Assembly: GCA_016934715.1 (NCBI GenBank)
Contig: JAFGSI010000028.1
Coordinates: forward strand, 124,001-188,000
From: Anaerolineales bacterium
Lineage (GTDB): Bacteria > Chloroflexota > Anaerolineae > Anaerolineales > Villigracilaceae
DNA: 64,000 bases
Direction: 5' to 3'
Shown: piece by piece, positions 46,003-62,147 of the stretch
Position numbering within the stretch: the first letter of the stretch is position 1
How the letters are laid out: each line of letters starts with the position of its first letter
The notes under the pieces: model-generated
The model's database searches: none
Told to the model about the DNA's origin: nothing
The model's input: the letters and a program-made list of their open reading frames with translations, nothing else
Program-made: the position numbers and the translations under genes

Positions 46003-46733
46003 CGCTTATCCGTTGCGCTCAGTCGAAATTCCAAGTAATACAGGCATACGGCCAACACCAGCCAGGCGAGTGCCTGAACCAGCCGCAGGCCTCCAAAGAT
46101 CAGCTGACTGTCGCCGCGGAAGGCTTCCAGCAGCAGGCGTGCCGCCGCGCTGAGAGCGATAAAACGGACGAAAAGCCGGCCGGGGGAATCCATCTGCCGG
46201 AACTGCTTCCAGAGCACTGCCAGAATGGCCAGGGCCGTCAGGACTTCGTAAATCTGGCTGGGATGGCGCGTCGCACCCCGCAGTTCCACTCCCCAGGGCA
46301 GGGTGGTCGGCGCGCCGAAGGCCAGACCCGAGGCGGCGTGCGACAATCCGAGTGCCACGGCGAAGACCGCCAGCCCTGGTGTCAGGGCATCCAGGGCCGT
46401 CAGCAGGACCAGTCCTTTGCGTTGCCCGTAGACCAGGGCCGCCAGCAGCCCGATTCCCACGCCCCCCCATGGGTCAAGCAGGCTCCGGTCGAGCGAGATC
46501 AGGCTGGCTGGCGCCTGGCGGAAGATCGCCAGGTGCTGCAGGACAAAGGAGAGTCGTGCTCCCACAACCCCGGCCAGCAGCCCGATCAGCGCCAGGTTCA
46601 CCAGCGGGTCGGCCTTGAGGCCGCGGCGGGAGGCGGTCTTCTCGACCAGGGTCAGGCCGAGATAGATTCCCAGCAGCAGTGTCAGACCGGGGATCTGGAT
46701 GGCCAGCGGGCCGACACGCAGGATCGGCAGCAT
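45999..46733 (-). CDS. Prolipoprotein diacylglyceryl transferase-like protein
   Basis: The 244-residue membrane protein has about seven helices. The motif HPSQIYEVLTA corresponds to the Lgt signature HPTQLYE, and GLLAGVVGARLSFVLQH matches the Lgt region around its conserved Arg. The central DPWGGVGIGLLAALVY replaces the usual GGMSxHGGxxG loop, in which the essential His is expected and is not seen. It may be an Lgt paralogue with altered chemistry. It is coupled to the TlpA-like gene upstream (1-nt overlap). Confidence 0.68.
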   Translation of the reverse strand: MLPILRVGPLAIQIPGLTLLLGIYLGLTLVEKTASRRGLKADPLVNLALIGLLAGVVGARLSFVLQHLAIFRQAPASLISLDRSLLDPWGGVGIGLLAALVYGQRKGLVLLTALDALTPGLAVFAVALGLSHAASGLAFGAPTTLPWGVELRGATRHPSQIYEVLTALAILAVLWKQFRQMDSPGRLFVRFIALSAAARLLLEAFRGDSQLIFGGLRLVQALAWLVLAVCLYYLEFRLSATDKR

Positions 46734-47284
46734 CAGGGTGCCTCCTGCAACAAGTCTTCAATGCGCGCCCGCAGGGCGGCCTCGGCCATTGGCCCGCCGA
46801 TCACCACCTCGGCGATGCCGCCGTCCGGGCGGACGAAGAAGGTCGTCGGCAGGGAGCGGATCTCATACAGGCGGTTGGCGCCGTTGTCGAGGTCGAGGGC
46901 AACCAGAAAGGACAGCTCGTGATCGGTGACGAATTCGTGTACGGCGTCCAGACTGTCCTGGCTGGTCGCGTTGACCCCCAGGATGATCACGCCACGCCCA
47001 TCGTATGCCTCGTGGACGGCCTGCAGGGCAGGCATTTCTGCCCGGCAGGGTGGGCACCAGGTGGCCCAGAAATTGACCACCACCACCTGGCCGCGCAGAT
47101 CCGAAAGTCGGACCTGCCCTCCGTCCAGGGTCTCGAGACGGAAGTCGGGCGCCAGGAAGCCAGCCTGTGGGGCAGGGACCAGGCCGGAGGGCGTCGCGGG
47201 CAGTTCGGTCCGGCTGAGGAAGATCCAGACCAGGCCGGCGAGCAGGAGGAGGGTAAGCAAGAATCGTCTTTGGACCGGTTGCAT
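46733..47284 (-). CDS. TlpA/ResA-like membrane-anchored thioredoxin
   Basis: The 183-residue protein has a signal anchor (residues 7-23) and an extracytoplasmic thioredoxin domain with FWATWCPPCRAEM (redox CPPC) and the cis-Pro region SLPTTFFVRPDG. It is expected to reduce disulfides outside the membrane, for instance in apocytochrome c maturation, which fits the cytochromes encoded further right. It has no Shine-Dalgarno sequence, and TAGAAC lies 13 nt before the ATG. Confidence 0.87.
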   Translation of the reverse strand: MQPVQRRFLLTLLLLAGLVWIFLSRTELPATPSGLVPAPQAGFLAPDFRLETLDGGQVRLSDLRGQVVVVNFWATWCPPCRAEMPALQAVHEAYDGRGVIILGVNATSQDSLDAVHEFVTDHELSFLVALDLDNGANRLYEIRSLPTTFFVRPDGGIAEVVIGGPMAEAALRARIEDLLQEAP

Positions 47285-50541: not shown

Positions 50542-50578
50542 TATCATAAGGATGATAGATATGCGGTTATCCGAATAA
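50542..50578 (+). promoter_or_regulatory. Operator-like dyads before the ArsR-type gene
   Basis: TATCAT-aagg-ATGATA (50542-50557) and TTAT-ccga-ATAA (50567-50578) are perfect inverted repeats. They lie just before AAGGTG and the ATG at 50591, where an ArsR-type repressor would be expected to bind its own promoter. Confidence 0.5.
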
Positions 50579-50590
50579 GGTGATGTAGCG

Positions 50591-50926
50591 ATGCTGTCTC
50601 AGACTCTCATACAGGAAATCACGCAACTGCACGCTGATTTCTGCTCGGCCCTGGCCGATTCGACCCGGCTCGTCCTGCTGTATGCCTTGGCAGATGAACC
50701 GCGCAATGTATCTGAACTGACCCGGGAACTGAATCTCCCGCAGCCGACGATCTCGCGCCATCTCAAGATCCTGCGCGACCGTGGCATGGTGGTTGCCATG
50801 CGAAGGGGGATGGCGGTACAGTATTCACTGGCTGACCCGCGCTTCATTGATGCGCTTGATATCCTGCGCACGCTCATGCGTGAGCGTATTCAATACCGCG
50901 CCAGCCTGATCGTGGAACCTGAATAG
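50591..50926 (+). CDS. ArsR-family transcriptional regulator
   Basis: The 111-residue winged-helix protein has the ArsR fold: FCSALADSTRLVLLYALADE, then a recognition helix in NLPQPTISRHLKILRDRGMV and a beta wing with MRRGMAVQYSLAD. Only one cysteine (Cys18) is present, so it lacks the two-cysteine site of sulfide/persulfide sensors such as BigR or SqrR and the metal site of ArsR/SmtB. It heads the cytochrome operon and probably controls it. AAGGTG lies upstream of the ATG. The inducer is unknown. Confidence 0.87.
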   Translation: MLSQTLIQEITQLHADFCSALADSTRLVLLYALADEPRNVSELTRELNLPQPTISRHLKILRDRGMVVAMRRGMAVQYSLADPRFIDALDILRTLMRERIQYRASLIVEPE

Positions 50927-50948
50927 CGCTCATACAACCTAAGTCGTC

Positions 50949-51024
50949 GTGTAAGAATAACCTCCCTGCTTTTGCGGCATTTATGGACAAAAAGTGATTG
51001 GAAAAACGGAAGTTATTCGTACAC
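50949..51024 (+). promoter_or_regulatory. 17-bp inverted repeat between regulator and octaheme cytochrome gene
   Basis: GTGTAAGAATAACCTCC (50949-50965) and GGAAGTTATTCGTACAC (51008-51024) are inverted repeats matching at 15 of 17 positions, 42 nt apart. Each arm holds a (C/A)GAATAA core that also occurs in the dyad at 50567-50578 before the regulator gene. They are either two operator copies or a long stem-loop in the mRNA just ahead of the ribosome-binding site. Confidence 0.55.
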
Positions 51025-51043
51025 AAGTCCTAAGGAGCAGGGC

Positions 51044-52486
51044 ATGAAGAAAATCAAGTCGTTTTGGATCCTCGGCGCAGTTGGAATCCTGCTGATCGTG
51101 TTGGTGCCGGTCATCTCCTTTTGGCCGCGCCCGACTGCAGTGTCCGGTGACCCCTGGGCCAATGTTCCCCAGCATCCGGTCCATACCAGCCACGCTGACA
51201 TCGTTCAGGGCCCGTTTGAGACGCCCCAGGATGTAACGCGTGCTTGCCTGGAGTGTCATCCCGAGGCGGCCAGTGACGTGATGATGACCACTCACTGGAC
51301 CTGGGAGAGTCAGCCCTTCGAGGTCTCCTGGCGCGATGAGCCGGTGACGATTGGCAAGATCAACCAGATCAACAACTTTTGTATCAGCGCCCAGGGTAAC
51401 CAGCACCAGTGCATGACCTGCCACATTGGCTACGCCTGGAGCGATGAGACCCCCTATGACTTCACCGAGCAGGCCAATGTGGATTGCCTGGTCTGTCATG
51501 CAGACATGGGCATTTATGCCAAGGGCACTTACGGCAACCCGGCCGAAGGAGTGGACTTGCTGGCTGCCGCCCAGAGCGTGCGAGCCCCGACCCGCGAGAA
51601 CTGCGGTTCATGCCATTTCAACGGCGGCGGCGGCAACAATGTCAAGCACGGCGATCTGGCCGAATCCCTGTACTTTCCCGATCAGGAGGTCGACGTCCAT
51701 ATGGGCGGCAATGATTTCCTGTGCACGGACTGCCATGTGACCCAGAATCATGAGATCCTCGGCCGGCTGGTGGTCGACAATGTCACAATCGACCCATCCG
51801 AACAGGTGGCCTGCGCCACTTGCCACACCGGCACGGTCCACACCGACGAACGATTGACCGCCCACGTCCAGTCGGTCGCCTGTCAGACCTGTCATATCCC
51901 GACCATCGCCCTGGACGAGCCGACCAAGACCTACTGGGACTGGTCAACCGCCGGCCTGGATCGGCCCGAAGAGCACTTCACCTATCTGCGCATCAAGGGT
52001 ACATTCATCTATGAACAGAATCTGATGCCGACCTATTTGTGGTTCAACGGCAACCTGGATTACCGCTACCTGCTTGGCGACCTGATCGATTTCGATGGGC
52101 CGACGTTCATAAACGTGCCGTCGGGGAACATCCATGACCCGACAGCGCTGATCTTCCCGTTCAAGGTTCACGTGGCCAACCAGCCGTACGACACCCAGTA
52201 TGGCTACCTGCTGGCCCCGATCACCTCCGGGCCGAACGGCTATTGGACCAATTTCGACTGGGATAATGCCTTTCGCCTTTCCGAGCCGATCACCGGGCTG
52301 GCATACAGCGGGCATTATGATTTCACCGAAACCTGGATGTTCTGGCCCAGCACTCACATGGTCCAGCCGGCTGATCGGGCGCTGCAGTGCGACGATTGTC
52401 ATGGCGAGAATGGCCGCCTAGACTGGATCGCCCTGGGCTATCCCGGCGATCCGATCGAATGGGGCGGCCGCTTCCAGCGGCCTTAA
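51044..52486 (+). CDS. Octaheme c-type cytochrome, tetrathionate-reductase family (OTR-like)
   Basis: The 480-residue protein has an N-terminal membrane anchor (residues 7-27) and eight CxxCH heme motifs: CLECH, CMTCH, CLVCH, CGSCH, CTDCH, CATCH, CQTCH and CDDCH. Segments such as MMTTHWTWE, NVDCLVCHADMG and NCGSCHFNGGGGNNVKHGD match the octaheme tetrathionate reductase family. OTR of Shewanella reduces tetrathionate, nitrite and hydroxylamine in vitro. It acts outside the cell membrane. AAGGAG precedes the ATG at 51044. The gene ends 11 nt before the cytochrome b fusion gene, its likely electron donor. Confidence 0.88.
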   Translation: MKKIKSFWILGAVGILLIVLVPVISFWPRPTAVSGDPWANVPQHPVHTSHADIVQGPFETPQDVTRACLECHPEAASDVMMTTHWTWESQPFEVSWRDEPVTIGKINQINNFCISAQGNQHQCMTCHIGYAWSDETPYDFTEQANVDCLVCHADMGIYAKGTYGNPAEGVDLLAAAQSVRAPTRENCGSCHFNGGGGNNVKHGDLAESLYFPDQEVDVHMGGNDFLCTDCHVTQNHEILGRLVVDNVTIDPSEQVACATCHTGTVHTDERLTAHVQSVACQTCHIPTIALDEPTKTYWDWSTAGLDRPEEHFTYLRIKGTFIYEQNLMPTYLWFNGNLDYRYLLGDLIDFDGPTFINVPSGNIHDPTALIFPFKVHVANQPYDTQYGYLLAPITSGPNGYWTNFDWDNAFRLSEPITGLAYSGHYDFTETWMFWPSTHMVQPADRALQCDDCHGENGRLDWIALGYPGDPIEWGGRFQRP

Positions 52487-52497
52487 GGAGAGGGCAG

Positions 52498-55299
52498 ATG
52501 ACCGATCTCATAAAACCCCTGAACCTGCGGACCAGGATGCTTGCTGTGGGCCTCCTGCTGGCACTGCTGGCCGTCGGGATGGGGATCCGCCTGGCCGCGG
52601 CGCGCGAGACCGGGGCCCCGACTGAGGCGATCTCGCCGCTTCACCCGACCTTCGCCTTGCTCGATCCTGAGGGGATCAATGTTCTGGAAAGTGCCGGCCC
52701 GGTCTCGACCATGCAGACCTGTGGCCAGTGCCACGACACGCTCTTCATCGTCGAACACAGCTACCATGCTGACCTGGGTTTGAGCGACATCCTGACGGGA
52801 ACGCAGGTTGAAGGGCAGGCCTGGGATTCCAGCACCGGCCGCTACGGCCAGTGGGATCCGCTGACCTACCGCTACCTCTCCGGGTCCGGCGATGAGCGTT
52901 TCGACCTGGGCACGCCCGAATGGGTGATGCTCTTTGGTGCCCGCCATGTCGGCGGCGGGCCGGCGACCACCTCCCGGATCGGTGTCCCGCTGGTTGACCT
53001 ATTTGTGCAGGCAAGTAATCCCGACTCGGCCGTCTTGGATCCCGAGACCGGCCTGCCGGTTGCCTGGGACTGGGAAGCCTCCGGCGTGATCGAGATGAAC
53101 TGCTTCCTGTGCCACATGGCAGCCCCGGACAACGCCGCCCGGACTGCCGAGATCGAGGCCGGCAACTTCGCCTGGGCCAATACCGCCACTCTGAATGGGA
53201 TGGGGCTGTTAAACCAGGACGGGGTTGGCGTCTATGCTTGGAACCCGGCGGCCTTCGACGGCGAAGGTGAGCTGCTCCAGGAGTACGTTGCCATCCAGGA
53301 TCCAACCAATGCCAACTGTGCCCAGTGCCACGGTGTGGTCCATACCGATGCGAATGTGCTTATCCTGCCTGTCTGCGGCGACCTGTCCTATCCGCAAACA
53401 GCCACCACCGGCCAGGTGATCGGGCCCGGGCGGATCCTCAATTCGGGCGTCAATCTATCCAACAAAGAGGAACTGGCTTTTGCCTGGGACATCCACGCCG
53501 AGCGCCAGGTGCAGTGCACCGATTGCCACTACTCGCTGAACAACCCGGTCTTTTATCAAGCCTCGGCCGTAAACCGGCCGGCGCACCTGCTCTTTGATCC
53601 GCGCAGGCTCGAGATCGGCGAGTACCTCGAGAGGCCTGACCACAATTTCGCCCGCGGCCAGAGCGCCCAATTCAATGTAGCTCCTGACCTCAAGGGCACC
53701 ATGCGGCGCTGTGACTCCTGCCACGAGGCCGTGGACACCCATGCTGGCTGGCTGCCGTACGCCGCGCGGCACATGGCTACCGTAGCCTGCGAAACCTGTC
53801 ACATCCCGCAGCTCTACGCTCCGGCAATCCGCTCCTACGACTGGACCGTTCTGACGGCTGACGACCAGCCGCTCACCTCCTGCCGCGGTGTGGAAGGCGC
53901 CGGTGACCCGGTGACCGACCTGGTCACCGGCTTCCAGCCGGTCTTGCTGCAGCGAACCAATGTCGACGGCGACACCCTGCTCGCCCCCTATAACTTGATC
54001 ACCGCCTGGTTCTGGGTCTATGAAGACGCCCATGGGAACACCCGCCCGGTCCGGATCGTGGACCTGGAGGCGGCCTGGCGGCCGGACGGAGCCTACCCAT
54101 CCGAGGTTCTGGTAGCTTTCGACGCCAACGGCGACGGCCGCCTTTCGGAGGCCGAACTGGTGATCGATACCCCCGAGAAGGAAGCCTTGATCGCCGGACG
54201 CCTGGAAGCGATTGGCCTGCGGGATCCGCGCATCGTCGGTGAGGTCTACCCCTACAGCATCAACCACAACGTGGTCGGAGGCGAGCAGGCGCTCGATGAC
54301 TGTGAGACCTGCCACAGCGCCGATTCAAGACTGGCTCAGCCGATCATCCTGGCGGGTTATGCCCCTGGTGGCGTGGCGCCCGAATTCGTTGCGGACACCA
54401 ATGTCCCACTGGCCGGGGAAGTGTATGCTGACGACGACGGGGCCCTGTACTACCAGCCCGATCCACAGGCCGAGAGCCGTTACATCTTCGGTCACAGCAA
54501 CGTGGCCTGGGTGGACCGGGTCGGCGGACTGCTCTTCGTGGGCGTGCTGATCGCCGTTGGCGGGCACAGCGGGCTGCGGGCATGGAATGCCATGCGGATG
54601 AAGGACGCGGTCAAGGCCAGGTTCAAGCGGACCTACATGTACCAGGCATATGAACGCATCTGGCACTGGTTGCAGACCGTGGTTATTGTCCTGCTGCTCT
54701 TTACCGGTCTGGTCATTCACCGTCCCGAGCTTTTCGGTATCTTCTCGTTCGCCGGGATGGTGGTGATGCACAATGTCCTGGCGGTGTTACTGGCGATCAA
54801 TGCTTTCCTGTCGCTGTTCTATCACCTGGCCAGCGGAGAGATCAAGCAGTTCATCCCGCGACCGCGCGGCTTCTTCGACAACGCGATCGTACAGGCCAAG
54901 TATTATCTTGGCGGGATCTTCAGGCGCGCGCCGCATCCATTCGAGAAGACTCCCGAACGTAGGATGAACCCGCTCCAGCAGATGACCTATCTTGTGATTC
55001 TGAATGTGCTCCTGCCGCTCCAGGGTCTGACTGGCATTCTGATGTGGGGCGTCCAGAAGTGGCCACAGTACGCCCGTTTCCTGGGCGGCCTGCCGGGCCT
55101 GGCCCCCTTCCACACCCTGATTGCCTGGACCTTCGCGGCCTTTATCGTCGCCCACGTCTACCTGACCACCACCGGCGGCCCTCAACCGCTCGACAGCATC
55201 AAGGCCATGGTGACCGGTTGGGAAGAGATTGAAGTCCATGAAGTCCCTGAGGAAGAAAAGAAACCTGTGCGCAAGCCCAAAACGGAGGAGAAAAAATGA
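52498..55299 (+). CDS. Heptaheme cytochrome c / EF-hand / cytochrome b fusion protein
   Basis: The 933-residue protein begins with a membrane anchor (residues 13-33). A large extracytoplasmic domain carries seven CxxCH motifs: CGQCH, CFLCH, CAQCH, CTDCH, CDSCH, CETCH and a second CETCH near residue 605. An EF-hand calcium loop, DANGDGRLSEAE, lies near residue 540. From about residue 675 come five membrane helices resembling b561/PhsC-type cytochrome b, with candidate heme His in IWHWLQT, VVMHNVL, LFYHLAS and PFHTLIAW. The charged tail is rich in Lys and Glu. It probably oxidises quinol in the membrane and passes electrons to the octaheme partner. Confidence 0.82.
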   Translation: MTDLIKPLNLRTRMLAVGLLLALLAVGMGIRLAAARETGAPTEAISPLHPTFALLDPEGINVLESAGPVSTMQTCGQCHDTLFIVEHSYHADLGLSDILTGTQVEGQAWDSSTGRYGQWDPLTYRYLSGSGDERFDLGTPEWVMLFGARHVGGGPATTSRIGVPLVDLFVQASNPDSAVLDPETGLPVAWDWEASGVIEMNCFLCHMAAPDNAARTAEIEAGNFAWANTATLNGMGLLNQDGVGVYAWNPAAFDGEGELLQEYVAIQDPTNANCAQCHGVVHTDANVLILPVCGDLSYPQTATTGQVIGPGRILNSGVNLSNKEELAFAWDIHAERQVQCTDCHYSLNNPVFYQASAVNRPAHLLFDPRRLEIGEYLERPDHNFARGQSAQFNVAPDLKGTMRRCDSCHEAVDTHAGWLPYAARHMATVACETCHIPQLYAPAIRSYDWTVLTADDQPLTSCRGVEGAGDPVTDLVTGFQPVLLQRTNVDGDTLLAPYNLITAWFWVYEDAHGNTRPVRIVDLEAAWRPDGAYPSEVLVAFDANGDGRLSEAELVIDTPEKEALIAGRLEAIGLRDPRIVGEVYPYSINHNVVGGEQALDDCETCHSADSRLAQPIILAGYAPGGVAPEFVADTNVPLAGEVYADDDGALYYQPDPQAESRYIFGHSNVAWVDRVGGLLFVGVLIAVGGHSGLRAWNAMRMKDAVKARFKRTYMYQAYERIWHWLQTVVIVLLLFTGLVIHRPELFGIFSFAGMVVMHNVLAVLLAINAFLSLFYHLASGEIKQFIPRPRGFFDNAIVQAKYYLGGIFRRAPHPFEKTPERRMNPLQQMTYLVILNVLLPLQGLTGILMWGVQKWPQYARFLGGLPGLAPFHTLIAWTFAAFIVAHVYLTTTGGPQPLDSIKAMVTGWEEIEVHEVPEEEKKPVRKPKTEEKK

Positions 55300-55853
55300 C
55301 GACCGCGGCTCCTGAAAAACAGAAACACGGCCTGTTCAACCGGCCCGCGAAACCCTATGTGCATCCTTACGTCGGGGGGGCGCTGCTCGGACTGGTCCTG
55401 TTCCTGGCCTTCCTGATCACGCGCAACGGCCTGGGCGCCTCGGGCGGGCTGAACCGCCTGATCGCGGCCGGAGAGGACATGATCGTCCCCGGTCACATTG
55501 ATCAGACCCCCTACCTGCTCAAGCTGGCTGGTGGCGATCGGAATCCGCTCGACGACTGGAGCGTGCCGGTGGTCATCGGTGCGATCGTTGGGGGGGCGGT
55601 TTCCGGGCTGATCTTCGGCCGCTTCAAGCCAGAACTGAACAAGGGTCCCAGGGTCTCGAACCGCACCCGCCTGATCATGGCTTTTCTGGGCGGGGCGATC
55701 ATGGCCTACGGGGCGCGCATGGCGCGCGGCTGTACCTCTGGTCAGGCCCTCTCGGGCGGGGCGGTGCTTTCCGCCGGCTCCTGGGCGCTGATGATGTGTA
55801 TCTTTGCTGGCGCCTACGCCCTGGCCTATTTCTTGCGCAAGTTCTGGAACTAA
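55296..55853 (+). CDS. YeeE/YedE family sulfur transport protein, first half
   Basis: The 185-residue membrane protein has four helices and the family motif RGCTSGQALSGGAVLSAGSW near residue 150, with the conserved Cys involved in sulfur-species transfer in TsuA (YeeE). Between helices 1 and 2 lies a long polar loop. It overlaps the upstream cytochrome gene by 4 nt and is followed by the second half, so the two together should form one transporter of thiosulfate or a related sulfur compound. Confidence 0.83.
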   Translation: MTTAAPEKQKHGLFNRPAKPYVHPYVGGALLGLVLFLAFLITRNGLGASGGLNRLIAAGEDMIVPGHIDQTPYLLKLAGGDRNPLDDWSVPVVIGAIVGGAVSGLIFGRFKPELNKGPRVSNRTRLIMAFLGGAIMAYGARMARGCTSGQALSGGAVLSAGSWALMMCIFAGAYALAYFLRKFWN

Positions 55854-55864
55854 GGAGGCCCGCG

Positions 55865-57151
55865 ATGACGATCTTCCCTCTGCAGCAATTTGTCAGCCAG
55901 GCGCTCTCCGAAAACTGGTGGACCTACCTGGTCTTCGGCCTGATCGGCTTTTTCTTTGGCTTCGCGCTCGAGATCTCCGGCTTCGGCAACTCCAAGAAAC
56001 TGGCCGCCCAGTTCTACTTCAAAGACCTGACCGTGCTCAAGGTCATGTTCGGCGCGATCGTCACAGCCATGGTGTTGATCTTCCTGTCCTCGGCCATGGG
56101 CATTCTGGACTTCAGCCTGGTCTATGTTCCCGAGACCTATCTTTGGCCGGGCATTGTCGGCGGCGTCATCATGGGCATCGGTTTCATTACTGGCGGGTTC
56201 TGCCCGGGCACTTCGCTCGTCTCGGCAGCCACGCTTAAGATCGACGGCATTTTCTTCGCCCTGGGTGTGTTATTCGGCATCTGGGGCTTTGGCGAGACGG
56301 TCGATCTCTACTGGAACTGGTGGAACACCAACAGTTACTATGGCCGCCTGACCCTGATGGACGTCTTCCATCTCCCGACCGGGGTGGTCGTTCTGCTGGT
56401 GGTCTTGATGGCCCTGTTCATGTTCTGGGGAGGGGAGCAGCTCGAACGCATCATCGGCAAGCGCGACCTGCAGAAGGAACCCCGCCAGCGGGTCTTCGGC
56501 GCTGCGGCGCTGCTCGTAGTGGCCCTGGCGGTCCTGGTCATCGGCCAGCCAACTACGGCCGACAAGTATGCCCGCTTGATGCTGACCCGCGAGATCGAAG
56601 GCGAGAAGGTCCAGATGCCGGCTGAGGAAATATTGTCCGGTCGCTATGTCCAGATCCATCCCGGTGAGCTGCTCGACAACCTGGCCGATTATCGGCTGCG
56701 TGTGGTTATGCTCGACGTGCGCGACGAAGCCGATTACAACCTGTTTCACATTCGCGGTGCCCAGCATGTGCCTCTGGTGGATGTCCCCGGGCGGGTGCCC
56801 GGGCTCATCTCCCAAACGACGGCCACACCCAATACGATCATCGTGGTGATGTCGAACGATGAGGATGCCGCCACGGATGCCTGGCGCGCCCTGGTGGCCG
56901 AAGGCATCCCCAATGTCTACATCCTGGAGGGCGGGCTCAACAACTGGATCGCGATCTTCGGACATGACGATCCGGACATCACCCCGACCCCCGGGCCGGT
57001 GGCGGACGACGATCTGCGCTACACCTTCCCGGCCGCCCTGGGTGACCGCTACGATGCCGCGCGTCCCAATCCGCACGAGTGGGAACTTGAGTATACCCCG
57101 CGCATCCAACTCCAGCGCCGGCGCAGCCCCTCCGGCGGAGGCTGTGGATAG
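55865..57151 (+). CDS. YeeE/YedE second half fused to a rhodanese-like domain
   Basis: The 428-residue protein starts with YeeE/YedE helices including FGFALEISGFGNSKKLAAQF and GFITGGFCPGTSLVSAATLK (conserved Cys). More helices follow to about residue 235. Residues 275-365 form a rhodanese-like domain (VVMLDVRDEADYNLFHIRGA; VYILEGGLNNW). At the usual catalytic-cysteine loop the sequence reads VVMSNDEDAATD, so the active Cys is absent. The protein ends SGGGCG, placing a lone Cys at the flexible C-terminus. AAGGAGG precedes the ATG. It closes the operon. Confidence 0.82.
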   Translation: MTIFPLQQFVSQALSENWWTYLVFGLIGFFFGFALEISGFGNSKKLAAQFYFKDLTVLKVMFGAIVTAMVLIFLSSAMGILDFSLVYVPETYLWPGIVGGVIMGIGFITGGFCPGTSLVSAATLKIDGIFFALGVLFGIWGFGETVDLYWNWWNTNSYYGRLTLMDVFHLPTGVVVLLVVLMALFMFWGGEQLERIIGKRDLQKEPRQRVFGAAALLVVALAVLVIGQPTTADKYARLMLTREIEGEKVQMPAEEILSGRYVQIHPGELLDNLADYRLRVVMLDVRDEADYNLFHIRGAQHVPLVDVPGRVPGLISQTTATPNTIIVVMSNDEDAATDAWRALVAEGIPNVYILEGGLNNWIAIFGHDDPDITPTPGPVADDDLRYTFPAALGDRYDAARPNPHEWELEYTPRIQLQRRRSPSGGGCG

Positions 57152-57863: not shown

Positions 57864-60800
57864 TCATGGAGATCTCGGTGAAAGCAGGTCAAGAGTGCCG
57901 CACGTCCATGATACGGATGCCGGCGCTGAAAAGAGAGAGGTATTCCCGGTAGGGTCGGTGACTGTTGTCGTGATCCCCAGGCCGGCCGGAAGGCATGGCC
58001 GCCCGAACAAAAAAGCGCCCGTGTCATCAGCAACCCGGCTATCCAGGTAATAGCGGCCTTCATCGCCGGCATCCGCAAACAACTCGACAGTACAGCCCGC
58101 ACAAGTTGTGCCCGAGATGCCTTGCGTGGGATCTGTTCCCAGCCTCGGCGGGGTCAATTGCCCGTTGCCGACTCCTGTCAAAACAATACCCGCGCCATCA
58201 TTGGAGTAAATGCTGTTCCGGCGGATTGTATTGCGAAGGCCATCCACCACCTCCAGGCCGTTCGAGCGGTTGTGTGCCACCGTGTTGCCCTGGATAAAAT
58301 TGATGCCCGTACCAGTGATCACAATGCCTGGTCCCGCATTGCCGAGCTGGATCGCTCCTCCTTGAGCGGTGCCGATCAGGTTGGCGAGCAGGAAACTTGA
58401 CGTCGAGCCGCTATTCAGGCTTATTCCTGGTCCTCCGTTGGCGGCAACAACGTTCCCCCGAACGACCGTTTCGCCGGCCGAGACAACCAAACCTTCATTC
58501 TGGTTGCCCAGGGCGCCCAGGCCTGATCCATCCGTGCCGATCAGGTTGCCCAGCACCAGATTTCCCACCGCATTCGAGCCGATGATCGACACCCCGATTG
58601 AATTGCCGCTGATCAGGTTGCCCTCTCCAGGTTGAGTCCCCCCGATGCGGTTAAAACTGGCTCCACCGAATCCAGCGCGCACACCGCCGTCATCGTTCGG
58701 GATAGACTGCGTGCCGCCGGCATCTGTGCCCAGCCGGTTGCCGATGATGATGTTGTAATCGCTTCCCTGATCTGAAATCCCCACCCCGACATCGCTGTTG
58801 CCGCTCGAGACGTTTGCCTGAACGAGGTTGGCGGCGGCGGCCAGCTCCATGGTGATGCCATTTCCGCGATTGCCCAGATCCCTGGTTCCCGTAACGTCGG
58901 TACCCACATAATTCCCGACCACCCAGTTGCGGCTGGTTCCCGATCCCATCATGGCAACGCCGGCGTAATAATTGTCGCAGATGATGTTACGCTGCCAATC
59001 CTCCAGCCCGCCGACCGTGTTGTCATGTGCTCCCCCATGGAGGAACAAACCGATATTTTCATTTCCCCAGGCGCTGGTGCCCGTCATGTCGGTGCCGATC
59101 AGGTTGCCGACAATCCAATTTCCGGAAGCCTCCTCACCCGCCACCATAATACCCATGTTACGATTGCCGCTGATCAGGTTGCCTTGCCCGATCGGTCCGG
59201 CCCCCTCGCCGCGGTCCCCGCCGATCGTGTTGTTTCGCCCCATCACCAGGATCGCTGAATGGGGGAAGCCGGTCAATTGTAAACCGCGCACGGTATTCCC
59301 ATTCGATGTAAGTGACAGGCCGTTGTCTCCTTCTTCAAGCTCACTGCCGTCGAGGATGACCCCTGCATTGCTCGCATCCAGAGTCACATTCCCGGGGAAG
59401 TGAGGTAACGGGGAAAGCAGCATGATCGCCACCGGATTTTCAGGCGGGAAAGTGGTGGGTGAAAAGTCGATGACGGTGCCACTTCTGGCATCCTGCAGAC
59501 AAGCCCGCACCGTTCCCGGACCGCTGTCGGCCGCGGAAGTAACCGTGCAGTTCGGTGCGGCTGCAGCAGCCCGGCCGGGCGGGCGTGAGGGTTCTCTGGA
59601 TTCGAAGAAGGAAGTCGTCCAACGGCCAACCGGAGGATCGTCAGGGATGGAAGCAAACCCTGCGGTATTGTTGGGCGTGAATTCAACCGAGAGAAGCTGG
59701 ACGGCAGGCATTTCGGGCAAGGAACCATGGCTCGGGGGTTCCCCATCCGCCGCGGGGGCCAGGATGACCAGACCGTTTGGACCATCCGCCAGGAAGACGT
59801 AATCATCACTGGTGACAACCCCGTGTGCTATTCCGATTGTGTCGAAACCACCGGTCAGCACGGGTTCGGTCGGGTCCGACACATCTGCCGTCTCCAATCC
59901 CTGGCCGGAGACCGCCAGGTAAGCGGTATTCCCCGTCACTGCGACGTCGTACAGTTCGCCCGGCGTGAAGACGTGCCCGAGGCCCCTGGGATGTGTCGGG
60001 TCGCTCACGTCGACTGTTCGCAGGATGTTATACTCCGCCAGATACGCGATGTTCCCCACCACAACGACATCCTGCGCGAAACTCCATTCGGTGGTGGATT
60101 GGCCCAACAGGGTTGGACTTGAGGGGTCCGACACATCGACCATCTTCAAGCCAGCGAACGAGGAGGCTACATAGGCAACGTCGCCGATGACCGACACGCC
60201 GACTGCTTCATGGCCATCTGCCGCCATCAGCTCGATCCGTGAAAGGAGGGCAGGGTGTAGCGGGTCGGCGACGCTGACCAGCTGAAGCCCGATCTCGTCG
60301 ACCAGATAAGCAATTCCATCCGTCACTTCAAGATCGCGGTACGCACCGTTCGGGAAAGGGGAAGGAAAAAGGGCGACGAGGGTGGGGTTGGCGAGGTTGG
60401 AAATGTCCACCACGCGCATCTCGCAACCGCCCGCCCGTCCGGCGAGATTCGCCACGTAGGCGAAATTCCCAACAACCTGCACGGCCAGCGCAAATCCGTG
60501 CGTGTCATAGGTGCCCACTTCAAGCGGGTGGGCGGCATCGGTGACATCCATGATCCGCAGCCCGTTATTTCCAGCCGCAACGTAGGAAAACTGCCCGGCA
60601 ACAACTACGCGGACTGCGTTGCCCAGTGAGTTGTACAGCCCGACCTGGACCGGATTCGCCGGGTTGCTCACGTCTACCGCGCGCACACCAAAATTGCGAT
60701 CAGCGATGAAGGCCATGTTCCCGGCGACAGACACGCTCCCGGCATGGCCCAGGTCGGGAGCGTGGGCGCCCAAAGTGCGCAGGCTGGCCGGATCCGCCAC

Positions 60801-61643
60801 GTCGACGATCCGGATGCCCCCCGCTGCATCCGCCACGTAGACACGCGTGCCGGACAGAACCACTCCGACGGCCCAGCCGGGAGTGGCCAGGACACCGTCC
60901 AGGGTCGGTTCTGTCGGGTCGGCCACGTTGACGACCTGCAGCCCGTTCCAACCGTCGGCAACGTAAGCAACTGTGGCGTTGGCGGCCACTCCATAGGCAT
61001 AGCCGGGGGTATCGACGGCGCCGGATTCAACGGGGTGGTCTGGATCCACTACGTCCACTACCAGCACCCCTGCAATCCCAGCTGCGAGGTAGGCATACTG
61101 CCCGTTTACGGAAACCCCGTAAGCATGTTCTGTCGAATACGCCGAGCTGATAGGCAATGGTTGTTCCGGGTCACTTATGTCGACGATTGCCAGGCCATAC
61201 GGTCCATCGGCGAGATATGCAGTATGCCCAACAACGACCACGCCCTCCGCATATCCGGGTGAATCCCATGCTCCGATTTCCACCGGGTGGGCAGGATCGC
61301 TGATGTCCACCACCCGCAGCCCGGCACTCCCTGCCGCTACATAGGCCAGATCGCTGCTTACCGTCACGTCCTGGACGAAATCTGCGAACTGGGCCGTGCC
61401 GCCTATTGGTTGCATCACGGCTGGATCGAGTGCATCGATGGAAACAAGCCGCGGGCCGACACCTGCGTATACGTAGCGTCCCTGTGAGACGACACCTTGC
61501 ACCGGGCCGCCGAATTGGCCAAGCACCTGCCAATCGGGAGAAGAGGAGTCCTGGATTGTCCCATGCAGAAGTTTTCCCGGGGAAGTGAGCATTAGGCACG
61601 TCAAGGTTGTAATCAGATACTTCCATCCTGTATGGCGCAGCAT
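57864..61643 (-). CDS. Large LVIVD-repeat / parallel beta-helix surface protein
   Basis: The 1259-residue secreted protein has an N-terminal signal (residues 8-22). Residues 30-640 contain about 14 LVIVD-type repeats (for example LRVVDISDPAHPVEIG and LAIVDISDPEQPLP), which fold as a beta-propeller. After a linker, a CSLREA-like start (CTVTSAADSGPGTVRACLQD, about residue 680) leads into right-handed parallel beta-helix repeats with many N-T-I-G-G and G-N-L-I-S-G-N units to about residue 1150. A final beta domain ends in SPRSP with no sorting motif. GGAGG precedes the ATG. It may bind carbohydrate or other cells. Confidence 0.75.
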   Translation of the reverse strand: MLRHTGWKYLITTLTCLMLTSPGKLLHGTIQDSSSPDWQVLGQFGGPVQGVVSQGRYVYAGVGPRLVSIDALDPAVMQPIGGTAQFADFVQDVTVSSDLAYVAAGSAGLRVVDISDPAHPVEIGAWDSPGYAEGVVVVGHTAYLADGPYGLAIVDISDPEQPLPISSAYSTEHAYGVSVNGQYAYLAAGIAGVLVVDVVDPDHPVESGAVDTPGYAYGVAANATVAYVADGWNGLQVVNVADPTEPTLDGVLATPGWAVGVVLSGTRVYVADAAGGIRIVDVADPASLRTLGAHAPDLGHAGSVSVAGNMAFIADRNFGVRAVDVSNPANPVQVGLYNSLGNAVRVVVAGQFSYVAAGNNGLRIMDVTDAAHPLEVGTYDTHGFALAVQVVGNFAYVANLAGRAGGCEMRVVDISNLANPTLVALFPSPFPNGAYRDLEVTDGIAYLVDEIGLQLVSVADPLHPALLSRIELMAADGHEAVGVSVIGDVAYVASSFAGLKMVDVSDPSSPTLLGQSTTEWSFAQDVVVVGNIAYLAEYNILRTVDVSDPTHPRGLGHVFTPGELYDVAVTGNTAYLAVSGQGLETADVSDPTEPVLTGGFDTIGIAHGVVTSDDYVFLADGPNGLVILAPAADGEPPSHGSLPEMPAVQLLSVEFTPNNTAGFASIPDDPPVGRWTTSFFESREPSRPPGRAAAAAPNCTVTSAADSGPGTVRACLQDARSGTVIDFSPTTFPPENPVAIMLLSPLPHFPGNVTLDASNAGVILDGSELEEGDNGLSLTSNGNTVRGLQLTGFPHSAILVMGRNNTIGGDRGEGAGPIGQGNLISGNRNMGIMVAGEEASGNWIVGNLIGTDMTGTSAWGNENIGLFLHGGAHDNTVGGLEDWQRNIICDNYYAGVAMMGSGTSRNWVVGNYVGTDVTGTRDLGNRGNGITMELAAAANLVQANVSSGNSDVGVGISDQGSDYNIIIGNRLGTDAGGTQSIPNDDGGVRAGFGGASFNRIGGTQPGEGNLISGNSIGVSIIGSNAVGNLVLGNLIGTDGSGLGALGNQNEGLVVSAGETVVRGNVVAANGGPGISLNSGSTSSFLLANLIGTAQGGAIQLGNAGPGIVITGTGINFIQGNTVAHNRSNGLEVVDGLRNTIRRNSIYSNDGAGIVLTGVGNGQLTPPRLGTDPTQGISGTTCAGCTVELFADAGDEGRYYLDSRVADDTGAFLFGRPCLPAGLGITTTVTDPTGNTSLFSAPASVSWTCGTLDLLSPRSP

Positions 61644-61714
61644 GCAATTCCTCCATATGAAAAGTATAGATTGTCGAACAGTGGATTCCGCAGAGGGTGA
61701 TCTGGATGGCATGC

Positions 61715-61747
61715 CAGGCGTGACAGGCGTGACAGGCGTGACAGGCG
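61715..61747. repeat. 9-bp tandem repeat upstream of the surface protein
   Basis: CAGGCGTGA is repeated three times and followed by CAGGCG. It lies about 70 bp upstream of the large surface protein gene, a position where slippage could change promoter spacing. Confidence 0.75.
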
Positions 61748-62147
61748 CTAGACCAAGCGGTGAGAGAAATCCATGTCTATCGAGCAAACCACCATCGATC
61801 TCGGTTACTTATGGCGGCCGTCCACTGGAGCCGGAATCATGTAATCGGACACCCTTCATGGACGGCCTGCCGTTCAATATTCTGGCGCAGAAATTCCACT
61901 CAGGAAGTGTATCTACTCGCACGCTCTCGTCAGCCACTCTGTAAGCAGCTCGGCTGTCGAAGTAGATACCAGGCATTCGGCAGCTTCCTGCCAATCATTC
62001 TCTCGTGATTAACCCATTTTCGATGCGGCGGTGCGACGCCGGGATCTGTGCGGGGCTGTTGGGCAACCGGCAGTCTTGCCGCTGTGGAGGACGGTGGTCA
62101 ACCATTGTTCTTCTCTCACCCGACGACCAACATTTCAGGTTCGCGGC

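Follow-up and report, generated by a model that had tools for sequence, protein, structure and literature searches.

What do octaheme cytochromes of the OTR family do in the cell? Their role was left unsettled by the structure paper of 2004 (cited in PMC11237559; this and the other papers are cited here from excerpts of their text), and a locus of an Anaerolineales bacterium (Chloroflexota; assembly GCA_016934715.1) raises the question in a concrete form. The DNA analysed, called the window below, comprises 64,000 nucleotides of contig JAFGSI010000028.1 (positions 124,001 to 188,000), and its positions 50591–57151 hold five genes on the same strand: arsR, otr, a gene for a heptaheme–cytochrome b fusion, and yeeA and yeeB, which encode the two halves of a YeeE-type channel. 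The answer that we favour, tentatively and with a confidence just short of even, is that the products form a sulfur redox complex outside the cytoplasm, linked to quinol, with its chemistry at OTR and with a tethered cysteine arm that couples it to sulfur import.

The operon (all of its features lie on the + strand) opens with a regulator of the ArsR/SmtB family (111 residues; 50591–50926; 77.9 bits on NF033788, cut-off 55), followed after 117 nt by otr (51044–52486). The latter encodes an octaheme cytochrome c of 480 residues with eight CxxCH motifs, which scores 538.5 bits on TIGR04315 (cut-off 375) and matches the structure 1SP3 with an E value of 3.2e-132, values strong enough to exclude a chance match. 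We take 1SP3 to be the Shewanella octaheme tetrathionate reductase, its record reading 'cytochrome c, putative'. The start adopted for otr is an ATG behind an AAGGAG resembling a ribosome-binding site, a longer in-frame TTG start being also present at 50972, and the hydrophobic N terminus of the protein probably serves as an anchor or signal. The fusion gene (52498–55299; 933 residues) begins 11 nt further on and overlaps by 4 nt with yeeA (55296–55853; 185 residues), which is separated by 11 nt from yeeB (55865–57151; 428 residues). YeeE-A corresponds to the C-terminal half of PF04143 (positions 160–309 of 310) and YeeE-B to its N-terminal half (positions 4–200) followed by a PF00581 domain. 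The five-gene set and its tight spacing downstream of arsR, as given in a preliminary description of this DNA, are thus confirmed by coordinates, family profiles and CxxCH counts.

This gene set is inherited as a unit. In a survey of 400 Chloroflexota genomes, including that of the window, OTR was found above the TIGR04315 cut-off in 15 (and in none of 14 control genomes), and in all 15 otr, the fusion, yeeA and yeeB lie side by side, one yeeB being cut by a contig end; arsR leads the operon in 14 and stands at the opposite end in one. A second search of the 400 genomes, for YeeB, whose listed genomes agree, gave full or contig-cut (G377) matches in the same 15; the other 385 had no such match, six of them giving partial ones. 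In genome G096 (L311:8776–10484) only fragments of the fusion, yeeA and yeeB are left and OTR gave no match, which looks like joint decay of the entire unit. The two genomes with OTR-like matches below the cut-off, G106 and G397, showed no window-type YeeE or fusion, save a weak fusion match in G397. A set from a contig collection, made up of the best 80 of 410 confirmed OTR loci and therefore biased to close relatives, and sharing genomes with the first survey, holds the fusion in 78 loci, yeeA and yeeB in 69 and arsR in 70; the order of the four genes is the same in 69 of 69, and in the other 11 the contig ends less than 3 kb after OTR. The preliminary description had made its case depend on linkage in relatives; the linkage is conserved, and its notion of a membrane-linked, co-inherited unit of redox and sulfur-transport genes is supported by both surveys.

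By their record titles, operon-bearing Anaerolineales come from groundwater, lake and wastewater assemblies. The non-Chloroflexota titles among the best 80 loci are Parasulfuritortus cantonensis, a Gallionellaceae metagenome-assembled genome (MAG) and a Planctomycetota MAG (a 3.2-kb contig, maybe misbinned). The record of P. cantonensis LSR1 (Betaproteobacteria) shows otr, the fusion, yeeA and a yeeB with an SGGGCG tail, without arsR, and its OTR is nested within Chloroflexota rows, which indicates horizontal transfer. A divergent copy of the operon, in G1188, came from a search around the phylum of Parasulfuritortus.

The most distinctive component is YeeE-B, in which the membrane part (55865–56569) is followed by a rhodanese fold (56660–56953) and by a C-terminal arm (57119–57151) ending in SGGGCG. 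The window protein has no cysteines besides C113, in the membrane part, and C427 (codon 57143–57145), in the arm. The rhodanese loop (residues 320–336), which carries the catalytic cysteine in rhodanese sulfurtransferases, contains no cysteine in 62 of 62 rows, nor in the 15 rows of a second alignment, one of them cut by a contig end. The C terminus reads GGCG in all 61 complete copies (SGGGCG in 56, TGGGCG in 3, TAGGCG in 1 and TTGGCG in 1), counted among 69 loci with yeeB after leaving out seven cut by contig ends and the copy of L111 (L111:6867–8119), where an in-frame stop stands ahead of a tail still reading SGGGCG. The 13 complete copies of the first Chloroflexota set also end in GGCG. 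The G1188 protein, identical at 185 of 409 positions, has C110 and C420 as its only cysteines, a tail reading ASGGCA and a cysteine-free rhodanese loop. The preliminary description had noted a rhodanese-like domain, which is indeed present (PF00581); its reading as a plain domain does not survive the missing catalytic cysteine and the invariant cysteine tail that follows.

The predicted structure of YeeE-B (mean predicted local distance difference test, pLDDT, of 68 from an alignment of 14 sequences) has a rhodanese block at pLDDT 71–93, which Foldseek matches to rhodanese folds, and values below 50 for residues 419–428, so that the tail is predicted to be disordered. In its glycine-rich, probably flexible C-terminal tail with a cysteine, YeeE-B matches a SoxY-like arm; no SoxY domain was detected in it (PF13501, no match up to E 1). 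Counted over six assumed helices, with residues 114–122 taken as re-entrant, K+R number six in inside loops and two in outside loops, a bias that would weakly place the rhodanese domain and arm outside the cytoplasm, on the side of the cytochromes. Seven related YeeE N-halves with no adjoining OTR (G028, G248, G297, G377, G318, G055 and G224) were compared, and none reaches the rhodanese domain or the arm; the neighbouring genes were viewed for two of them, and both lie beside a molybdoenzyme. By this comparison the arm belongs with the OTR operon and is no general trait of split YeeE. A YeeE–rhodanese match from Gemmatirosa was left unused, its record being unannotated and without usable context.

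Each half of the channel contributes one membrane cysteine, C146 in YeeE-A and C113 in YeeE-B, the latter present in 62 of 62 copies. YeeE-A aligns with residues 236–327 of 6LEO. The preliminary description spoke of thiosulfate-type transporters, of which the YeeE-type linkage stands and the thiosulfate type is less supported. YeeE-A reaches 44.2 bits (cut-off 400) and 26.4 bits (cut-off 645) on two models of full-length TsuA, cut-offs hardly reachable for a half protein, and the pair has two membrane cysteines where TsuA has three. A better argument than these scores is the layout of two halves with one membrane cysteine each, which favours the split PmpA/PmpB type (YedE1E2; layout defined in PMC11582611) over TsuA. 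For YedE1E2, 59% identical to PmpA/PmpB, zero-valent sulfur is reported to be imported and not exported, with both cysteines needed (PMC10812762). The genome of the window also carries a separate DsrE–TusA–YeeE–DsrE cluster (G000:C10, L208:5609–7728), which resembles the YTD cluster of sulfur disproportionators (PMC13047784). That cluster could act as a cytoplasmic taker of imported sulfur; TusA was found in 6 of the 10 genomes searched and is therefore no general requirement for the operon.

On the redox side, the fusion combines seven CxxCH motifs with a b561-type membrane end (PF01292, 85.1 bits). It scores 121 bits on PRK15006, the PhsC cytochrome b of thiosulfate reductase (cut-off 204), and stays below the model of the methanogenesis heptaheme family, TIGR04314 (58.9 bits, cut-off 250). 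Both cysteines of all seven heme motifs are kept in 15 of 15 Chloroflexota copies. The fusion is likely a quinol-linked electron carrier, the route in proteins of these families running from quinol through cytochrome b and the c hemes to OTR. In OTR itself, C113 (codon 51380–51382) and K201 (codon 51644–51646) align with Cys64 and Lys153 of 1SP3, which we take to be active-site residues, and both are kept in 81 of 81 copies; a second alignment has them in 92 of 93 rows, the remaining one being gapped. The equivalent of Asp150, a residue that presumably also has a role in OTR, is N198 in the window and Asn in 80 of the 81 copies; the divergent copy of G1188, counted apart from these, has Asp. 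This exchange was considered as a signature of carrier-linked OTR and rejected: it holds for the Chloroflexota set, fails in G1188 and in some rows with a DUF302 neighbour, and the position varies across the family in the 93-row alignment. A selenocysteine at the Cys64 position, suggested by an OTR selenoprotein in a review table (PMC13188914), was likewise dropped, because the sole in-frame TGA seen in an OTR (that of G816, L265:5941–7533) lies elsewhere, after the part with heme motif 5 and before that with motif 7; selenocysteine, decay and error are all possible for that copy. The presence of otr in Anaerolineae bins has already been published (PMC7887784).

C18, in 15 of 15 copies, is the only conserved cysteine of ArsR, so that it lacks the cysteine pair of persulfide sensors of the BigR/SoxR type (NF040642, 40.6 bits, cut-off 155); it also falls below the models for CmtR (57.7 bits, cut-off 150) and TsoR (58.7 bits, cut-off 115), and a relation to TsoR/TsoB was discarded. 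A candidate operator, ATGCGGTTATCCGAAT, lies at 50561–50576, 30 nt ahead of the arsR start. Its pattern, AT.CG-N6-CG.AT, was spotted by eye in the window and then counted in 45 of 85 regions upstream of arsR vs 7 of 1060 random 270-bp pieces; the 85 regions include same-genome copies from two collections, and the strict form is missing in 40 of them. Two sister loci, L313 (G028) and L312 (G377), hold an ArsR, a triheme cytochrome, YeeE halves, a long open reading frame (ORF) of the twin-arginine translocation (Tat) type, and ORFs of iron–sulfur (Fe–S) and NrfD size; L313 was analysed with family profiles and L312 classed by gene layout. The L313 molybdoenzyme reaches 597 bits against the PhsA model (cut-off 694) and has as its best solved relative 2VPW, named thiosulfate reductase (E 6.6e-134), and further ORFs match the Fer4 and NrfD families. 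The ArsR of L313 shares 84% identity with that of the OTR operon L032, of the same genus label, and 63% with that of the window, and the 16-mer ATGCGTTTATGCGTAT is identical in L313 and L032, 32–33 nt ahead of arsR. Upstream of arsR in L312 the operator pattern was not found even allowing one mismatch.

The seven armless YeeE N-halves (L313:5400–5945, which equals L302, and L303, L304, L305, L309, L307 and L308) differ at the codon equivalent to Cys91: five of the seven genomes have an in-frame TGA (G[YF]UPGT) and two have Cys. The selenocysteine tRNA was above cut-off in 12 of 12 genomes searched, and also in 5 of 14 controls. A selenocysteine version of the channel cysteine is therefore likely in these relatives, judging from their codons.

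Neighbourhoods of OTR elsewhere show whether such arms recur. Searches covered the class of Parasulfuritortus (369 genomes), the order of G753, a genome with SoxY beside OTR (195), and the phylum of Parasulfuritortus (398). From these, 117 neighbourhoods were taken, comprising all 35 above cut-off and two below from the class search, 40 hand-picked from the order of G753 among the matches listed, and 40 of 56 from the phylum. Two plasmid-borne loci were added; 117 of the 119 gave an OTR row, four of which were dropped (three very long branches and one interrupted copy), and the addition of 15 Chloroflexota gave a tree of 128 rows, computed by a quick method, unrooted and drawn at midpoint. Window-type OTR forms one group of 17 rows (support 99), adjoined by three Shewanella-type rows. 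A second group, of 16 rows (support 95), stands apart from it and includes the following loci of Pseudomonadota genomes. In six of them OTR is touched by a DUF302 protein with a C-terminal GC (Pfam confirms five, and the sixth shares 66% identity with one of these), SoxY touches OTR in one, and a PF04143 protein of 412–415 residues, its halves apparently ordered YeeE-A, YeeE-B, lies near OTR in two, one of which also has SoxY four ORFs away. Elsewhere, soxY-S3 and soxZ adjoin otr in lucinid sulfur-oxidising symbionts (PMC11237559), and in a number of sulfur oxidisers soxA and soxB are separated by a DUF302 gene (PMC5248467).

Two further observations concern these neighbourhoods. In Shewanella-type rows and part of the DUF302/SoxY group (L331, L333, L342, L177, L262, L334 and L327), OTR has nearby a small cytochrome c with one heme and a terminal Cys-Gly or Cys-Ser, which could be another arm; as background, 57 of 1357 ORFs have a Cys at one of their last two positions. 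Iron–sulfur assembly genes of the SUF type stand near OTR on a Paracoccus plasmid (L168, annotated) and in the Anaerolineales loci L032, L036, L038, L042 and L045 (Pfam run for L032), and were not seen near the window operon.

Taken together, these features suggest the following mechanism. Under ArsR control, the fusion would take up electrons from quinol at its cytochrome b end and relay them over the seven c hemes to OTR, where an S–S bond, of a polythionate, thiosulfonate or persulfide, would be cut at the lysine-ligated heme with the nearby C113. The sulfane sulfur may then ride on the SGGGCG arm of YeeE-B, the arm replacing rhodanese catalysis, and be handed to the C113/C146 channel of YeeE-A and YeeE-B for import. 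Reduction is tentatively preferred over oxidation, and we infer that arm-bound sulfur is either what OTR acts on or the acceptor of its product. A bolder version, possible but more doubtful than the general one, holds that protein-bound sulfur on the channel-fused swinging arm is the natural substrate of OTR here, that the same arm feeds the channel, and that a second clade recruited DUF302-GGC and SoxY arms to the same end. OTR would then reduce (or oxidise) the arm-bound sulfur, making redox chemistry and membrane passage one handover.

Several observations weigh against this interpretation. Seven of the 16 rows of the second OTR group have no DUF302, SoxY or PF04143 neighbour, none of the 95 rows outside the two clades has one, and the 40 hand-picked loci from the order of G753 show no DUF302 or SoxY neighbour. 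Glycine-rich cysteine tails outside the window type occur in 7 of 155 same-strand genes touching OTR vs 6 of 1099 others, with a p value (3.5e-4) that serves as a guide only, the rows being related. The topology of the arm depends on charge counts over assumed helices, the membrane part of the YeeE-B model is poor, and the fusion model (pLDDT 49) was too poor for a fold search and was not used. A rhodanese-like domain without its cysteine is not unique either, since the best sequence match, Alr3790, is also cysteine-free in the aligned loop. Finally, a ten-row OTR group (support 100, among the 95) has a pentaheme and another octaheme cytochrome nearby; at its locus L172 the two hit Cytochrome_C554 and PF13447, with a tetraheme ORF alongside, neighbours that we presume to be 'HAO-like' and 'NapC-like' proteins, which suggests nitrogen compounds as substrates in that clade.

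OTR might instead simply reduce tetrathionate or other polythionates in free form, with YeeE importing the freed sulfane sulfur and the arm serving assembly or docking. Family membership and the retention of C113 and K201 agree with this, as do the naming of the T. dismutans OTR, with its neighbouring cytochrome b, as a probable tetrathionate reductase (PMC4911364) and the reported import of zero-valent sulfur by split YedE1E2, whose 14-kD proteins have no arm (PMC10812762). It leaves unexplained, however, both the invariant terminal cysteine beside a cysteine-free rhodanese loop and the unrelated cysteine-tailed proteins touching OTR in another clade, and we judge it unlikely, though well within consideration. 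The opposite direction, in which OTR oxidises arm-borne sulfane sulfur and delivers electrons to quinone in a SoxCD-like role, draws on the 143 of 195 genomes with OTR above cut-off in the order of G753, which itself has SoxY beside OTR, and on the soxY gene beside otr in the lucinid symbionts (PMC11237559). The PhsC/b561-like cytochrome b and the related regulator at a PhsA/PsrA-like locus speak against it, although such enzymes may be reversible; we consider it improbable.

Slightly less probable again is that OTR reduces nitrite, hydroxylamine or NO and that the YeeE genes serve a separate purpose in the same regulon. For the Shewanella enzyme, reduction of both nitrite and hydroxylamine is reported in vitro (Atkinson 2007, cited in PMC4484225), and the ten-row clade with other multiheme cytochromes fits such a role, but the 15 Chloroflexota stretches (14.7–21 kb) hold one further ORF with at least three CxxCH motifs, a hexaheme in L034, and OTR is inseparable from the YeeE halves. 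That the genes make up a unit for detoxification of selenium, arsenic or heavy metals is most improbable: ArsR does score above the general ArsR/SmtB model and YeeE relatives at related loci do have an in-frame TGA, but ArsR stays below the specific TsoR and CmtR models and has one conserved cysteine only.

The surroundings of the operon add two features. An ORF with a WCPPCR motif on the – strand (46733–47284), 3.3 kb from the operon, resembles a secreted thioredoxin of the TlpA type, and a repetitive ORF of 1307 residues (57864–61787, – strand) lies just beyond the operon.

The literature searched, with subscription papers outside it and the sources excerpted, gave no description of this gene set, whose absence from print is unproven. 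The operon is a strongly conserved unit of known kinds of parts; its new element is the cysteine arm fused to a split channel and tied to OTR. With its tight co-inheritance and invariant cysteine arm, it offers a concrete answer, testable by point mutations, to the question of what OTR does in the cell, and P. cantonensis LSR1, whose record has these genes apart from arsR, may provide a bench organism. If the proposal is true, a carrier arm would be fused to its own sulfur channel, and protein-bound sulfur would join the possible substrates of multiheme enzymes.

Comparison with known systems shows where the locus departs from each of them. It shares with Shewanella OTR (1SP3, TIGR04315) the eight CxxCH motifs, the Cys64 and Lys153 equivalents and a family score above cut-off, and three Shewanella-type rows, one at 876 bits to 1SP3, are its sister group in the tree as drawn. 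However, the partners there are a small cytochrome c and a DUF3373 protein instead of the heptaheme–cytochrome b fusion and YeeE halves, and their Asp150 is replaced by Asn in 80 of 81 window-type copies, though not in that of G1188. OTR adjoins a membrane cytochrome b in T. dismutans (TDIS_1882/1883) and Ignavibacteriae Ch128a as well (PMC4911364, PMC7509429), and lies beside a separate one in many of the Pseudomonadota loci examined, whereas in the window cytochrome b is fused to seven c hemes with YeeE halves downstream. The PhsA/PsrA-like locus L313 has a related ArsR, the 16-mer of the OTR operon L032 and a split YeeE, but a molybdoenzyme with Fe–S and NrfD-like proteins replaces OTR and there is no arm, and its counterpart L312 has no strict operator. 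The layout of PmpA/PmpB (YedE1/YedE2) is that of the window channel, with two halves and a single membrane cysteine in each at the Cys91 and Cys293 positions, to which the window N-half adds a predicted helix, a cysteine-less rhodanese domain and the cysteine-tipped arm. With the swinging arm of SoxY, finally, YeeE-B shares a cysteine in a glycine-rich C-terminal tail and a gene adjoining OTR; unlike SoxY, including the soxY-S3 product of lucinid symbionts, it has no SoxY domain and carries its arm built into the channel protein.

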